Shown: in pieces, positions 1,566 to 14,120 of the stretch
Layout of the letters: each line of letters opens with the position of its first letter
Position numbering within the stretch: position 1 is the first letter of the stretch
Source of the DNA: a virus
Length of the DNA stretch: 22,534 nucleotides
Virus record (IMG/VR): IMGVR_UViG_3300045918_000094
Span: 1 to 22,534 of that record
Strand: one strand, 5' to 3'
Made by a program: the position numbers and the translations under genes
The notes under the pieces: generated by a model
The model's input: only the letters and a program-made list of their open reading frames with translations
Databases searched by the model: none
Told to the model about the DNA's origin: nothing

Positions 1566-1594
1566 TTGACATTAAATCTCCTTAATGATATTAT
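1566..1594 (+). promoter_or_regulatory. Early promoter P3 (curlin gene)
   Basis: TTGACA (1566-1571), 17-bp spacer, TATTAT (1589-1594). Unusually, the spacer holds one arm of a perfect inverted repeat whose other arm is the ribosome site of the gene (see 1577-1625). Confidence 0.75.
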
Positions 1595-1625
1595 TAATCA
1601 TAAAATAAATAATACATTAAGGAGA
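1577..1625 (+). promoter_or_regulatory. Ribosome-site-sequestering inverted repeat spanning the promoter
   Basis: TCTCCTTAATG (1577-1587) and CATTAAGGAGA (1615-1625) are perfect 11-bp complements separated by a 27-nt AT-rich loop. The right arm contains the Shine-Dalgarno AAGGAG; the left arm lies between -35 and -10. A transcript arriving from upstream would carry both arms and hide the ribosome site. A transcript starting at P3 (about 1600) would lack the left arm and be open. Confidence 0.6.
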
Positions 1626-1630
1626 GAATA

Positions 1631-2023
1631 ATGAAAAATACCACAGCAGGCCTAATACTCTTATCAATGTTATCAACCGCGTCAGGAGCGGACTTAGCAC
1701 TCGTACCAGAATTCGGAGCTAATATAACTCAAACTGAAGCATTCATAATACAAAGCGGTAAATCTAATCTGGCATTAATTGACCAGACAAATTCAACCAT
1801 ATCCTACGCGGAAATTCAACAAACAGGTCAAACAGACTCCGCTAATATACTAGATACAGGTTCGCATAATCAATCCCGTATAATCCAAACTGGTAATAAT
1901 GATATTGCTGTTATTCAGACCGCTGGTTCTAATAATATGGCAGATATATCACAATTACACAATCAATCCGCTGCTTATATCGTTCAATCCGGTTCAAATA
2001 ACACCGCCACTATTAGACAATAG
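1631..2023 (+). CDS. Secreted curlin-repeat protein (CsgA/CsgB-like amyloid subunit)
   Basis: 130-aa protein with a Sec signal peptide (K2, hydrophobic core 6-14, cleavage near 17-20), a short mature leader (LVPEFGAN), and four to five repeats of about 22 residues from 42 to 130. Half-repeats follow the curlin pattern Gly-x-Asn-x-Ala-x-Ile-x-Gln, for example GNNDIAVIQ, GSNNMADISQ and GSNNTATIRQ. Curlin repeats of this type stack as a beta-solenoid in the extracellular curli fibres of E. coli (CsgA major subunit, CsgB nucleator, about 150 aa). The length and charged or imperfect repeats are closer to CsgB. No csgC/E/F/G genes lie nearby, so export through the outer membrane would need host machinery. 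It has its own early promoter and a sequestered ribosome site, and sits among host-takeover cassettes. Family assignment is strong; the role is unknown (biofilm, seeding or blocking host curli, superinfection exclusion). Confidence 0.88.
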   Translation: MKNTTAGLILLSMLSTASGADLALVPEFGANITQTEAFIIQSGKSNLALIDQTNSTISYAEIQQTGQTDSANILDTGSHNQSRIIQTGNNDIAVIQTAGSNNMADISQLHNQSAAYIVQSGSNNTATIRQ

Positions 2024-2032
2024 TCTTATCAC

Positions 2033-2060
2033 TTGCATTTTAATTACCTTCTGTTACAAT
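2033..2060 (+). promoter_or_regulatory. Early promoter P4
   Basis: TTGCAT (2033-2038), 16-bp spacer, TACAAT (2055-2060) with TGT before it. The spacer is complementary to the ribosome site of the gene it serves. Confidence 0.75.
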
Positions 2061-2086
2061 AGAATCATTCAAACAGGAGGTAATTA
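2041..2086 (+). promoter_or_regulatory. Second ribosome-site-sequestering inverted repeat spanning a promoter
   Basis: TAATTACCTTCTG (2041-2053) pairs with CAGGAGGTAATTA (2074-2086) over 13 positions, with one U-G wobble. The right arm holds the AGGAGG ribosome site and the first base of the ATG; the left arm lies between -35 and -10. The geometry matches the curlin gene but the stem sequence is unrelated, which argues for function rather than simple duplication. Confidence 0.6.
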
Positions 2087-2796: not shown

Positions 2797-3714
2797 ATGA
2801 TTAAATTTAACACAAGCACGAATAACTGGGAAGCTAAACGTAACGGTAAAGGTGCTGTTATCGTAAGAGGAAAATCAGTTGAACGCGTAAAGGAATTGCT
2901 TATGGTTAAACATGCGATTGATGGTAATACTTTCACAGTCGTATCGCATACAGATGCCCCAGCTGTTACCTTACAAAGTACTAATACCGTTTCAATGGCA
3001 ATCAAAAAATCAGAATTCAGTGTATCCGAACGATTCAGATTTATCGCAGAATTCACTAAATTGTGCGCTAAAGGTACAATCCCATCAATGGTTATCACAG
3101 GCTCGGGTGGACTCGGTAAAACTCATACAGTTCTAAATACACTGAAAGATATTGGATTGACCGAAGATACAATCGGTTCAGTAGATGGGGATTTTGTATT
3201 CTGTAAGGGTTATTCAACTGCCCGCAACCTGTACACAACACTATTTCATAATAATGGTAAAGTAATCATTTTTGATGACTGTGATAGCGCATTCAAAGAC
3301 CCTAATTCATCTAATATCCTTAAAGGTGCACTTGATAGCATGGAACGCCGAATCGTATCATGGGGCGCCGAATCAAAAGATGATTCTGTGCCCTCAAGAT
3401 TCGAATTCATCGGAAAGGTTATTTTTATCAGTAACCTCGAAATGTACAAGTTCCCTCAGGCATTGCTGTCACGCTCAATGCTAGTTGATTTAACACTCAA
3501 TCCCGAAGAAAAGCTTGAACGCATTGAACAAATTTTCACCGAAGAGTCAGAATATGAGGCGGATGATAAGGCCGAAGTGATGGAATTTATTAAGAAAAAT
3601 GCCGCAAAGTTCAAAGACCTCAATGTCCGCAGCGCGTTCAATGCGCTAAAGATGAAAGTTGCATTAGGCGAAGGATGGGAAAGAATGGCATTGTATAGCG
3701 CAACAATCAACTAA
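2797..3714 (+). CDS. AAA+ family ATPase
   Basis: 305-aa protein starting at the ATG at 2797 behind AAGGAG; an in-frame upstream ATG at 2743 lies inside the promoter. Residues 8-46 form a small module with RGKSVERVK (24-32), also found in the product of 681-1211. The AAA+ core follows: Walker A GSGGLGKT (102-109), Walker B KVIIFDD (155-161), a sensor-1 asparagine (ISN, about 213), a probable arginine finger (SRS, about 226) and a sensor-2-like arginine in NVRSAFNA (about 278). The family couples ATP hydrolysis to remodelling of protein or DNA; the substrate is unknown. It stands alone as one cassette and is followed by a hairpin. It could be a small replication or clamp-loader-like factor or a modulator of a host process. 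Confidence 0.85.
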   Translation: MIKFNTSTNNWEAKRNGKGAVIVRGKSVERVKELLMVKHAIDGNTFTVVSHTDAPAVTLQSTNTVSMAIKKSEFSVSERFRFIAEFTKLCAKGTIPSMVITGSGGLGKTHTVLNTLKDIGLTEDTIGSVDGDFVFCKGYSTARNLYTTLFHNNGKVIIFDDCDSAFKDPNSSNILKGALDSMERRIVSWGAESKDDSVPSRFEFIGKVIFISNLEMYKFPQALLSRSMLVDLTLNPEEKLERIEQIFTEESEYEADDKAEVMEFIKKNAAKFKDLNVRSAFNALKMKVALGEGWERMALYSATIN

Positions 3715-4423: not shown

Positions 4424-4600
4424 ATGAAAAACCAAATCACCACAGCTCAACTCAAAGAATTAGCTAAACAAGATGGTTACACTGGTTACACTGGTTACAC
4501 TGGTTACACTAAGCAATCCCGCAAAACTGCTATCAAACAATCCGACCTCAATAAACAAAAAGCTCGACACAATAAACAATTACTCCGCGATACTTTTTGA
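4424..4600 (+). CDS. Small basic protein with tandem Gly-Tyr-Thr repeats (58 aa)
   Basis: Cassette gene with AAAGGAAG and ATG at 4424. The N-terminus (about 17 residues) looks helical, then four Gly-Tyr-Thr triplets occur (about residues 18-29), then a very basic Lys/Gln/Arg-rich tail. The triplets come from four exact copies of a 9-bp unit (4475-4510), a slippage-prone tract, so copy number may vary between relatives. No family is recognised; the composition suggests nucleic-acid binding. Confidence 0.68.
   Translation: MKNQITTAQLKELAKQDGYTGYTGYTGYTKQSRKTAIKQSDLNKQKARHNKQLLRDTF
4475..4510 (+). repeat. Four exact tandem copies of a 9-bp unit
   Basis: GGTTACACT repeated four times inside the 58-aa gene. 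The unit is the complement of GTGTAACC, a motif that also occurs singly in intergenic DNA near 5975, 7233, 7328 and 7555. Confidence 0.95.
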
Positions 4601-7025: not shown

Positions 7026-7083
7026 TAATTGAATAACAGTGGGAGATGCGTATCTCATATATCATGCGTATCTCTCCCAGATA

Positions 7084-7102
7084 TTGGATTTTGGAGCCAT
7101 CA
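7084..7102 (+). repeat. 19-bp direct repeat, copy 1
   Basis: TTGGATTTTGGAGCCATCA, exact match to 7143-7161, with starts 59 bp apart. Confidence 0.95.
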
Positions 7103-7142
7103 AATGCGTCTACCCCGCCTCATAAGATTCTCTAACCCGCTT

Positions 7143-7161
7143 TTGGATTTTGGAGCCATCA
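7143..7161 (+). repeat. 19-bp direct repeat, copy 2
   Basis: Exact copy of 7084-7102. Confidence 0.95.
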
Positions 7162-9074: not shown

Positions 9075-9265
9075 TGGAATATTATATTTTAATTGGAGTT
9101 TTTGCATATATACAAGCTATATTAACAACTCGGTGGATGAATTTAACAGAGTTTGAACGACCTTTTGCATTTTTCATATCATGTATATTGTTCACGCCTA
9201 TTGTCACTATAGGATGGATTTTTGGTGGAATTTATACATTTACAAAGTGGTTGATTAAAGTATGA
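9074..9265 (+). CDS. Small membrane protein (63 aa), two helices
   Basis: The start overlaps the upstream stop (TAATG) and the end overlaps the downstream start (ATGA). Two hydrophobic helices (about 4-20 and 31-53) are joined by a polar loop, with a basic C-terminus predicted to face the cytoplasm. There is a GAGGAG site in front. Position directly before the phosphatase gene suggests co-translation but no functional link is proven. Confidence 0.65.
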   Translation: MEYYILIGVFAYIQAILTTRWMNLTEFERPFAFFISCILFTPIVTIGWIFGGIYTFTKWLIKV

Positions 9266-9675
9266 AGATTGAAAATATTGCAGCTATAGATTTTCAGAAT
9301 GGTTATCACAAATTGCATGGAAAGAATACAATTGCAATACAGATATGTGACCCTTGTGGTTGGGTGCCAAAAGCTAGACATGAATTCTTTGCAACATACC
9401 AATTTGAATTTCTTGATATATCTGCATCCGATCTATCTGAATTTGGTGAGTTTGGCATAACAGACGATCAAGCTAAACATATTGCTGACATATTGATTGA
9501 TGCAAAAGATAAGTCATTTGATGTGACGGTGCATTGTACTGCCGGTATTTGTAGAAGTGGAGCGGTGGTTGAAGTTGCAACTATGCTTGGGTTTATTCCT
9601 GTACACAATAATAGAACGCCTAATACGCTTGTCAAACGAAAACTGATGAAGGAATTAGGATTAACATACGAATAG
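9262..9675 (+). CDS. Cysteine-dependent protein phosphatase (PTP/dual-specificity type)
   Basis: 137-aa protein with the phosphatase signature HCxxGxxRS (residues 91-99: HCTAGICRS), where Cys92 would be the nucleophile and Arg98 would bind phosphate. An acidic loop at about 53-62 may supply the general acid. The length fits a minimal dual-specificity phosphatase, a family that removes phosphate from Tyr, Ser/Thr or small substrates through a phosphocysteine intermediate. It overlaps the upstream membrane gene by ATGA. Small phosphatases of this sort occur in several large myoviruses, with unknown targets. Family assignment is strong; substrate is open. Confidence 0.85.
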   Translation: MKIENIAAIDFQNGYHKLHGKNTIAIQICDPCGWVPKARHEFFATYQFEFLDISASDLSEFGEFGITDDQAKHIADILIDAKDKSFDVTVHCTAGICRSGAVVEVATMLGFIPVHNNRTPNTLVKRKLMKELGLTYE

Positions 9676-10830: not shown

Positions 10831-11168
10831 TGAATGTACCTGATAAGTGGGTTGTATTAGAATTCAATAGCAATGGTAAAAAACTTTATAAAGTATTTGC
10901 TGGATGGTATGGTGGATATTTAGGAAGTGATTCATGGAAGTTGAATTCCGGTATTGTATCAACTAGTAAACCCGATGAAATGTATATATTCGCCGGATAT
11001 AGTGGATCTGAATATCATTGTCATGAGCATTGTTATGGTATGAGTATGTATATGTTAAGTATTCTTTCATCATTTCAAGAGCAAGTTAATTCAGCTGAAG
11101 GTGTTACGTTGAAAGTGTTATCTAAAGATGAATTACCTGAACTGATAGGAGAAATGTATGAAGATTAA
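10830..11168 (+). CDS. Conserved-looking phage hypothetical protein (112 aa)
   Basis: Start at 10830 coupled to the previous stop (TAATG), with AAAGGAG inside the upstream gene. Residues 18-41 read YKVFAGWYGGYLGSDSWKLN and onward, a pattern I recall from phage hypothetical proteins. A His/Cys cluster follows (YHCHEHCYG, about 61-70). No function is known. It overlaps the Prs-like gene by 11 nt. Confidence 0.74.
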   Translation: MNVPDKWVVLEFNSNGKKLYKVFAGWYGGYLGSDSWKLNSGIVSTSKPDEMYIFAGYSGSEYHCHEHCYGMSMYMLSILSSFQEQVNSAEGVTLKVLSKDELPELIGEMYED

Positions 11169-12024
11169 GATATTTAATTTGGATGATAATTCAACTGAAG
11201 TGAAATACGATCTTGGCATTTTCTCTGGTGGAGAAATTCGTGTTAGGATTGGTACCGCTAAAGTTTTGATTAATGTAAGAATTGAAGCATATATTTTCAA
11301 TTCAGATGATGTAATGACTCTTATTATGTTGGTTGATGCCTTGCGTCAAATTAACACAACTGATATTAGATTGACTATACCATATCTCCCTTATGCTAGA
11401 CAAGACCGAGTATGTAATCCGGGTGAAGCATTTAGTTCAAAAGTATTTGCTGATATTATTAACTCTCTTAATTTTGAATCAGTAGTTGTATGGGATCCTC
11501 ACTCTGAAAATGCAATTCGTGATATTAAGAGATGTTTGATTGTACCTCAATATGAGTTAATGCGTAAACATGTAGATTTAATGAATTGGTTGAAATTGGA
11601 ACCGGTTTATCTTATTGCACCAGATAAGGGTTCTATCCATAAAACTGATAATATTGCAACCGTATTTTCAAAGTATGTTAAAAGTGTATTGTATGCGGAT
11701 AAGGTACGAGAATTGTCTACTGGTAAGATAATTAGAACCGAAATTAAAGGAAATATTCCTGAAGATTTTTCGTCTAGTAGAGTATTAATTTGTGACGATA
11801 TTTGTGACGGAGGAAGAACTTTCATTGAATTAGCTAAGATTATACCGGAATGTAAAGAAAAGTCATTGTATGTTACTCATGGTATTTTTAGTCAAGGTAA
11901 AGAAGTTTTAAGAAAACCGGGAACCCCAGAAGAAGAATATAAACTTAAACGAAATGATTTAAAGGTTAATACCGGATTATTTGATAATGTATGGTGCTCT
12001 GTTGACTTTAAGGAGATTCGATGA
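11158..12024 (+). CDS. prs: Ribose-phosphate pyrophosphokinase-like enzyme (Prs fold; candidate ADPR pyrophosphokinase)
   Basis: 288-aa Prs homologue, shorter than cellular enzymes (about 315 aa). Visible features are the ATP-binding YARQDR loop (about 79-84), DPHSE (113-117) in place of the usual DLHAE, and the PRPP-type phosphoribosyl loop LICDDICDGGRTF (about 209-222). Classical Prs makes PRPP from ribose-5-phosphate and ATP. In the phage NAD+ reconstitution pathway NARP1, a Prs homologue (Adps) instead pyrophosphorylates ADP-ribose, and a NAMPT homologue (Namat) then joins nicotinamide to give NAD+. A NAMPT-like gene lies one gene downstream (12630-14120) and no NMN adenylyltransferase is visible, so NARP1 is plausible. 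Ordinary PRPP supply is the alternative. It overlaps the genes on both sides. Confidence 0.87.
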   Translation: MKIKIFNLDDNSTEVKYDLGIFSGGEIRVRIGTAKVLINVRIEAYIFNSDDVMTLIMLVDALRQINTTDIRLTIPYLPYARQDRVCNPGEAFSSKVFADIINSLNFESVVVWDPHSENAIRDIKRCLIVPQYELMRKHVDLMNWLKLEPVYLIAPDKGSIHKTDNIATVFSKYVKSVLYADKVRELSTGKIIRTEIKGNIPEDFSSSRVLICDDICDGGRTFIELAKIIPECKEKSLYVTHGIFSQGKEVLRKPGTPEEEYKLKRNDLKVNTGLFDNVWCSVDFKEIR

Positions 12025-12554
12025 TTAGTTTTAAAGAGTTTATCAATGAAGTATTTGATAATCCTTGGGACAAAGAGCATGATGAACATATGACAAATGA
12101 GATGCAACATTTCTTATCGAATCATAAAGAACCGCATGAGAGTTTTAATAATGTTAAAGCTCACAAACTAGAAGGTGATAATGGTCATTTAATTTCATAT
12201 ACTAGAAATGGGGTGTTAGAAGTACATCATTTAGATAAAGATCAAAATTCTGGAGAAATCCAAAATGGAAATAAACCAAATCCTAGATTTTATTCTACTA
12301 TGATAGAACATCTTAAAACTCATGGTTTAGATAAAGGTCGACCTGTTAAAGTAGTTTCAACTAAAGATTCTGTTTTAAGTAAACATTACAAAAACATAAT
12401 TCCAAAAATAACTAAACGGGAAGGATATGAAATAGAACATGGAGAAGATTCTAGTTTAGGTAATAAAGTTGATACCATTACAATTCACCCTAAAGGTTAT
12501 AATAAAAAATTTGACGGATTAAAAGAACAATTAAAGAACATATTTGACATTTAA
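12021..12554 (+). CDS. Candidate internal head protein with a T4-type capsid-targeting sequence
   Basis: 177-aa protein starting at 12021, overlapping the Prs-like stop (ATGA). Its first ten residues, MISFKEFINE, match in length and pattern the T4 internal-protein targeting peptide MKTYQEFIAE. They end in Ile-x-Glu, the cleavage motif of the T4 gp21 prohead protease. By analogy it may be packed into the prohead, trimmed and ejected with the DNA. The rest is hydrophilic, His/Lys/Asn-rich with no membrane segment; the stretch near 90-145 loosely recalls an acetyltransferase layout but I do not claim it. Context between NAD-related genes suggests a host-takeover or anti-defence effector. Confidence 0.7.
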   Translation: MISFKEFINEVFDNPWDKEHDEHMTNEMQHFLSNHKEPHESFNNVKAHKLEGDNGHLISYTRNGVLEVHHLDKDQNSGEIQNGNKPNPRFYSTMIEHLKTHGLDKGRPVKVVSTKDSVLSKHYKNIIPKITKREGYEIEHGEDSSLGNKVDTITIHPKGYNKKFDGLKEQLKNIFDI

Positions 12555-12572
12555 TATATCTTGCTGTATAAT
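12544..12572 (+). promoter_or_regulatory. Sigma70 promoter for the NAMPT-like gene
   Basis: TTGACA (12544-12549), 17-bp spacer, TATAAT (12567-12572). It overlaps the upstream stop. A small hairpin ATGGC/GCCAT (about 12578-12596) lies in the leader. Confidence 0.85.
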
Positions 12573-12629
12573 TAATACATGGCAACAACGCAGCCATTAC
12601 AAATTCATTCATTAATTAAGGAGAGTAAA

Positions 12630-14120
12630 ATGAGTATCGACCAATCGTATTCGTCTGTTTTAACTGCTATAGATTTCTACAAAGCCGGACATCGTCAACA
12701 ATACCCAGAAGGTACAACGGAAGTATATTCTAATTTCACACCTCGTAGTGTTAAGCACTTGAATGTTGAACTTAGTTTGTATGATGGTAAGATTGTATTT
12801 TTCGGACTACAAGCATTTATCAAGTCATTTTTGATTGAGGGATTTAATCAAACATTTTTCAATCGTTCACTTGCTCATGTATTAACGAAATATAAGCGCC
12901 GGATGGATACCTCACTATTCACTGATTTTGATGTAAGTCATATTGAAGCCTTACATAAGCTTGGATATTTGCCTATCAAGATTAAAGCCTTACCTGAAGG
13001 TTCTAAGGTTAAACCGGGTGTACCTGTATTCACTATTGTTAATACTTTACCTGAATTTTTCTGGTTGACTAATTATCTGGAAACTGCTATCAGTGCAGAA
13101 ATTTGGAAGAAGATGGTTAATGCAACAGTTGCATCTCATTATCGTGGTATTTTTGAGAAATATGCAGATTTGACCGGTTCACCAAAAGATTTCATCTGGT
13201 GGCAAGGGCATGACTTCTCAATGCGTGGTATGTCCGGTGTAGCAGATGCCGCAATGAATGGAATGGCGCACTTGACTTCATTCTATGGTACAGATGTAGT
13301 ATGTGCCATTGATTCAATGGAATATTTCTACAATGCAGATACTGATAAAGAAATTATTGGTGGAAGTGTACCGGCAACTGAGCATAGCGTTATGTGTATG
13401 GGTGGAAATTTGGATGAACGTGCAACATATGAACGTCTTATCACTAAAGTATATCCTGCGGGCATCGTAAGTATTGTATCAGATACCTGGGATTTTTGGA
13501 ATGCTATTGATGTTATTGCTCCTTCATTGAAGAAGGAAATCATGGCACGAGATGGCAAAGTTGTATTCCGTCCGGATTCAGGTGACCCAGTTAAAATTAT
13601 TTGTGGTGATCTTGATGCAGTTGAAGGTTCTAATGAATGGCTTGGGGCAGTTCGTATTCTTGATAAACACTTCGGACATACTTTGACAGAAAAAGGTTTC
13701 AAGGTTCTTGATTCCCATGTTGGGTTGATTTATGGTGATAGTATTACTCCAAAACGCGCAAATCAAATCTTGAAGAATTTGATGGAAATGGGATATGCTT
13801 CATGTAATTGTGTATTTGGTATTGGATCTTATACATACAATTACAGTACTCGTGATTCTATTGGTGGTGCAATGAAGTCTACATCTGGTATTGTTAATGG
13901 AGTTCGCCGAGAAATTTTCAAAGATCCTAAGACCGATTCTGGTCTGAAGAAGTCGGCTAAAGGGTTGCTGCGAGTTACGTTGGTTGAAGATGAATATGTT
14001 CTTTTAGATCAACAAACAGAAGAACAAGAAAATTCGGGTGAATTGTTGATTGTATTTGAAGATGGAACATTGTACAATGAAACATCTTGTGCGGAAATTC
14101 GTTCAAGACTCGTTAAGTAG
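12630..14120 (+). CDS. nadV: Nicotinamide phosphoribosyltransferase-like enzyme (NAMPT/NadV family)
   Basis: 496-aa enzyme. The start at 12630 follows AAGGAG by 6 nt; an in-frame ATG at 12579 has no ribosome site. Family landmarks are the N-terminal DFYKAGHRQQYPEG, the active-site histidine in PATEHS (His252; His247 in human NAMPT), FRPDSGDP (Arg314 and Asp316; human Arg311/Asp313), GIGSYTYN and the KDPKTDSGLKKSAKG loop. NAMPT condenses nicotinamide with PRPP to NMN. In NARP1 a homologue (Namat) uses ADPR-pyrophosphate and makes NAD+ directly. It has its own early-type promoter, so it can be expressed independently of the Prs-like gene. A hairpin follows. Confidence 0.93.
   Translation: MSIDQSYSSVLTAIDFYKAGHRQQYPEGTTEVYSNFTPRSVKHLNVELSLYDGKIVFFGLQAFIKSFLIEGFNQTFFNRSLAHVLTKYKRRMDTSLFTDFDVSHIEALHKLGYLPIKIKALPEGSKVKPGVPVFTIVNTLPEFFWLTNYLETAISAEIWKKMVNATVASHYRGIFEKYADLTGSPKDFIWWQGHDFSMRGMSGVADAAMNGMAHLTSFYGTDVVCAIDSMEYFYNADTDKEIIGGSVPATEHSVMCMGGNLDERATYERLITKVYPAGIVSIVSDTWDFWNAIDVIAPSLKKEIMARDGKVVFRPDSGDPVKIICGDLDAVEGSNEWLGAVRILDKHFGHTLTEKGFKVLDSHVGLIYGDSITPKRANQILKNLMEMGYASCNCVFGIGSYTYNYSTRDSIGGAMKSTSGIVNGVRREIFKDPKTDSGLKKSAKGLLRVTLVEDEYVLLDQQTEEQENSGELLIVFEDGTLYNETSCAEIRSRLVK

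Follow-up and report, generated by a model that had tools for sequence, protein, structure and literature searches.

The T4-like phage represented by this stretch of DNA encodes an orphan, putatively secreted curlin-repeat protein (P0001) of the functional amyloid kind, with a predicted RNA lock at its start site. Given that phage curlins as such are already known, what is new here is the stand-alone, CsgB-like form. Our preferred reading, to which we assign a probability of about 40%, is that P0001 is a stand-alone secreted minor-type curlin, exported by curli machinery encoded away from its gene, that would seed or cap curli on infected cells. The coordinates of the relevant features within the window, i.e. 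the whole stretch of 22,534 nucleotides that was analysed and which is one entire virus record, are given in Table 1.

Table 1. Features at and around the curlin gene, in window coordinates.
Feature	Position	Strand	Details
Own sigma-70-type extended -10 promoter	1566..1594	+	TTGACA-17-TATTAT; early-array member
Shine-Dalgarno-sequestering hairpin (predicted)	1577..1625	+	Arms 1577-1587 and 1615-1625
AATAAATA, possible T4-type late promoter box	1604..1611	+	Inside hairpin loop; weak
Curlin-repeat protein (P0001), CsgB-like minor-curlin type	1631..2023	+	130 aa
Signal-peptide-like N-terminus	1631..1687	+	Residues 1-19; read by eye, compared with bacterial curlins
Curlin repeats, ~4.5	1733..2020	+	Residues 35-130; from autocorrelation, half-repeat lay-out and strand spacing in the model
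Second hairpin of like design (predicted)	2041..2086	+	Precedes gene 2086-2352; Shine-Dalgarno pairing probability 0.99, z -4.6

P0001 is a curlin. Its reading frame is intact, and the product matches the Pfam curlin repeat (Curlin_rpt, PF07012) in four stretches with an E-value of 1.7e-12 and a score of 47.5 bits, above the curated cut-off of 20.7 bits for this family, while its best solved relative by sequence is likewise a curlin-repeat protein (PDB 8c50, 8.6e-17). An assignment of the repeats to tail fibers was ruled out by these same matches in Pfam and the PDB. Autocorrelation at 11, 22, 33, and 44 residues revealed a 22-residue period (z 5.8 against shuffles) with a half-period of 11 (z 5.3), and the half-repeat lay-out comprises about nine and a half units of ~11 residues each, canonical-looking throughout. 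At the N-terminus, a plausible cleavage site between ASG and ADL, identified by eye, would yield a mature protein starting with xDL. A preliminary description of this DNA, made from the sequence alone, had proposed a curlin with a signal peptide and four to five repeats of about 22 residues: the HMMER comparison to Pfam that it suggested bears out the family, the repeat number and period agree, and the N-terminus does resemble a signal peptide.

That description also called for a structure prediction to look for a beta-solenoid. An AlphaFold2 model computed from P0001 aligned to CsgB proteins of bacteria (mean pLDDT 75, about 90 across the last repeats) displays regularly spaced beta-strands, ~11 residues apart, and its best structural match, first by a clear margin, is the E. 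coli CsgA fibril 8enq (Z 16.3 in VIA-align 2, with 108 aligned residues and an rmsd of 8.2, which indicates a loose long-range geometry). Foldseek alone returned no significant match for the model, which leans on the CsgB alignment given that single-sequence prediction fails. The model thus points to a solenoid-like fold closest to the CsgA fibril, as anticipated, albeit one dependent on the alignment.

Among short curlins, the minor (CsgB-like) type appears to fit P0001 best, ahead of CsgA. The NCBIfam CsgB model scored 52.1 bits against 35.7 bits for the CsgA model, both below their cut-offs (165 bits for the CsgB equivalog NF007506), and phmmer scores reached about 28-50 bits with bacterial minor curlins versus 15-19 bits with enterobacterial CsgA. 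Long multi-repeat curlins outscored the minor curlins, which we attribute to the many repeats that they contain. In genomes, the hit with the highest score was a minor curlin (genome G368, locus L131; 43% identity over residues 40-130) that adjoins a second, longer curlin, its other neighbors having been read by eye, and E. coli CsgB displayed 42% identity over residues 60-130. The signal-peptide-like N-terminus, the probable xDL mature start, the 22-residue curlin repeats, and a similar length are all features that P0001 shares with bacterial minor curlins. Unlike bacterial CsgB, however, it is encoded by a phage, stands alone, does not reach the CsgB equivalog cut-off, and, when aligned with enterobacterial CsgB, stops short of the basic fifth repeat; when the alignment is widened to further minor curlins of bacteria, its repeat register is ambiguous.

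The window includes genes for a T4-type gp32 (single-strand binding protein), baseplate, and tail-tube, along with a dual-specificity/tyrosine phosphatase-like protein at 9262-9675 (Pfam DSPc, 4.8e-5, below cut-off). A second contig, L005, derives from the same virus (6703-base overlap with 2 mismatches) and extends the window by 5.8 kb that encode baseplate and tail proteins; the curlin gene lies outside of L005. The 22.5 kb contig, or 28.4 kb with L005, thus covers only part of a T4-like genome. The first 7 kb of the window are occupied by arrayed small genes, the majority of which follow a near-identical extended -10 promoter cassette, and about 16 such sigma-70 cassettes, most ahead of one small gene, were identified between 175 and 6772 with the layout TTGACATT-AAT...ATGTTA-AAT followed by AATCATCAA. 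Because the curlin gene is one member of this array, we consider it truly phage-borne. Contamination or a chimeric assembly was ruled out, as promoter cassettes of the array continue on either side of the gene and the AAA protein at 2797-3714 belongs to a phage family (phrog_1250). Two further repeats were observed in the window, namely a 9-base unit (TGGTTACAC) present four times in tandem at 4474-4509, which encodes GYT repeats within a small early ORF, and a 26-base direct repeat (ATTGGATTTTGGAGCCATCA type) at 7077-7161, with copies 59 bases apart, in a stretch that lacks clear genes and precedes poly-A-rich DNA.

Searches for relatives of the curlin gene yielded no close homologue among annotated phages (tblastn), no further copy in viral contigs by peptide-pattern or exact-DNA searches, and no close homologue in genome contigs searched with P0001 as a single protein; no sister phage carrying the gene was found, and it is known from one contig only. 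Such a restricted distribution is compatible with a recently captured host gene that has no function in the phage, but the intact frame, the phage-like promoter cassette, the dedicated hairpin, and a third-position GC of 0.275, matching that of neighboring phage genes, make this highly improbable. PADLOC identified no defense genes among the neighbors of the curlin gene, and the window includes no tRNA or Rfam match, so that tRNA and Rfam provide no hint of the host.

The promoter of the curlin gene (TTGACA at 1566 and TATTAT at 1589, an 11/12 match) should start transcription at about position 1601. The hairpin ahead of the gene has arms forming a perfect 11-bp inverted repeat, and the computed fold buries the Shine-Dalgarno sequence (dG -21.2, z -7.9 versus shuffles). 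Since the 5′ arm falls within the spacer of the promoter that belongs to the gene itself, RNA initiated there would be open for translation, and only RNA reading through from upstream would be locked. The same holds for the gene at 2086-2352, whose hairpin also has its 5′ arm in the spacer of its own promoter. Among 30 starts surveyed in the window, these two were the only ones to combine a Shine-Dalgarno pairing probability of 0.99 with a fold far more stable than in shuffles (z -6.2 for the curlin gene and -4.6 for the other). The two genes may therefore be a co-regulated pair; the second matches none of the families in PHROGs or PADLOC.

A similar lock logic is found in phage T4, where soc, e, and homing endonucleases are late genes carried on early transcripts (PMC2988022). 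Like its counterparts at T4 soc, e, and I-TevI, the hairpin of the curlin gene would hide the Shine-Dalgarno sequence on read-through RNA, while the proximal start omits the 5′ arm, so that a stable Shine-Dalgarno-covering hairpin is missing from the proximal transcript, as judged from computed folds and a predicted start. The curlin gene differs from the locked T4 genes, however, in that its clearly recognizable proximal promoter belongs to the early sigma-70 type, and the late box is weak. This box, AATAAATA, is located within the loop of the hairpin, but its core motif, ATAAATA, also occurs in 20% of shuffles of this AT-rich loop, and the gene may be expressed early, late, or at both times. 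Separately, divergent late genes at 7560-7609 of L005 bear back-to-back GATAAATA boxes, likely the late-promoter consensus of this phage. It is thus conceivable, though doubtful, that the curlin gene is expressed late or at two times, with the hairpin silencing the gene on early read-through transcripts, and a late promoter that lies within the hairpin releasing the curlin, which would then act at release or on progeny. The T4 precedents, the position of AATAAATA, and the GATAAATA boxes of the phage's late genes argue in this direction, whereas the frequency of the motif in shuffles, the strong early-type promoter directly over the 5′ arm, and the absence of a late box at the equally locked gene 2086-2352 argue against it. 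This alternative concerns timing, and is compatible with the seeding or capping role that we favor. Overall, the gene's own promoter and translational lock, both put forward in the preliminary description, are borne out by the repeated cassettes and by the computed fold, respectively; its label of an early gene is likely from the promoter, although T4 hairpin locks of this kind sit on late genes carried on early transcripts and a late-type box lies in the loop.

The preliminary description further considered a phage-encoded curlin unexpected, which does not hold in general, as curli (type VIII secretion) operons have already been published for pelagiphages. Specifically, curli secretion genes have been described in pelagimyophages, in pelagipodophages, and in the OM43 phage Melnitz, while curlins are also present in the podophages and in re-examined myophages (PMC7029224, PMC9004378, PMC9599517). 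Phages of the HTVC008M (myophage) and HTVC023P (podophage) types and Melnitz, some of them T4-like, thus resemble the phage studied here in encoding curli genes, including curlin-repeat proteins in many of them. In these pelagiphages, however, long and divergent curlins are found alongside CsgG and CsgF (often with FecR and a cyclase), whereas the present phage has a single short, canonical curlin provided with a promoter and a lock of its own.

We also recovered curli operons in T4-like viral contigs related to this phage by gp32, from marine and river phages. Curlin matches, in ORFs longer than 200 aa, were detected in 5 of 17 and 6 of 50 gp32-related viral records, and relatives with 41-43% gp32 identity carry CsgG. 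None of 50 viral records related by nicotinamide phosphoribosyltransferase included a curlin. The gene for this enzyme follows a phosphoribosylpyrophosphate synthetase-like gene in the window (11158-14120), forming a phage NAD salvage pair, and its product is 79% identical to that of another viral contig (L030), the other genes of which look different. In the gp32-related phages, curlins adjoin CsgG and CsgF, mostly exceed 200 aa in length, and reach no more than about 17-21 bits with the Pfam repeat; P0001 did not match the curlin ORFs of L008, L009, L011, L013, or L014 at an E-value of 1e-3, and its gene has neighbors other than CsgG, CsgF, and FecR. Given that pelagiphage-type curlins are longer, score weakly, and are not detected with P0001, the latter is most simply explained by a separate acquisition, which we regard as most likely, although fast divergence of both from one ancestor is possible.

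These relatives also bear on how P0001 might be exported. As the preliminary description had noted for the vicinity of the gene, neither CsgG nor CsgF had a match in the window or in the overlapping L005 (28.4 kb, part of the phage genome). The partial coverage of a T4-like genome and the CsgG genes of gp32 relatives both weigh against our preferred reading, and a phage-encoded CsgG elsewhere in the genome is possible. The phage could accordingly own a full or partial curli secretion operon, of the kind found in pelagiphages, in the unsequenced part of its genome, with the curlin gene being a detached minor subunit. We see this as rather unlikely: full systems have been reported for pelagiphages of the Myoviridae and Podoviridae (PMC9599517) and T4-like gp32 relatives from marine and river phages do carry curlin ORFs with CsgG, yet the curlins of these relatives are of the longer, weakly scoring, CsgG/CsgF-adjoining kind, none was retrieved with P0001, and the curlin gene of the window sits alone among early genes.

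Under the seeding or capping reading, transcription of the P0001 gene would begin at its own promoter within the early region, with the hairpin preventing translation from RNA reading in from upstream. Sec would then take the protein into the periplasm, and a CsgG-type pore not encoded nearby, most likely that of the host, would export it via the N-terminal DL-type signal. Outside of the cell, P0001 would fold on contact with host curlins, and either seed fibers lacking attachment to the outer membrane or cap existing ones. E. coli CsgB without its fifth repeat nucleates CsgA in vitro, yet is not membrane-bound (PMC4551309). Of the roles offered in the preliminary description, which included seeding or poisoning of host curli and exclusion of other phages, all may be conceivable; the lack of a CsgB-type fifth repeat in P0001 speaks for a nucleator or capper that is unanchored rather than held at the cell surface, and suggests that this orphan minor curlin may act on curli supplied by others.

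For the phage, the benefit would lie in an altered curli coat around the infected cell or nearby cells, such that progeny are retained, neighboring cells gathered, or rival phages hindered. Curli layers have been shown to bind and hold phage T7 (PMC8346279), so that changing curli could hold progeny close to new hosts or impede rivals. The same trapping of phages, together with the protection of cells by curli (PMC8346279), could instead favor a protein that poisons host curli, by capping growing fibers or jamming CsgG, and strips away the phage-trapping matrix. The short length of P0001 and its lack of a CsgB-type anchor repeat would suit such a poison, which we nevertheless consider unlikely, as half-repeats that look canonical throughout are expected to template growth, with no sign of a blocked end.

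Phage curli operons have previously been interpreted as equipping hosts devoid of curli with an entirely new secretion system. In the specific form in which a lytic phage uses one soluble, unanchored nucleator, passed through the host curli pore, to redirect host amyloid around infected cells by templating rather than through a fiber system of its own, our preferred reading is rather unlikely. A lone minor curlin would nonetheless represent a cheap hijack of host amyloid through seeding, and, if true, would link phage infection to the control of the biofilm matrix. P0001 thus provides a small protein with which to ask whether phages manipulate curli.
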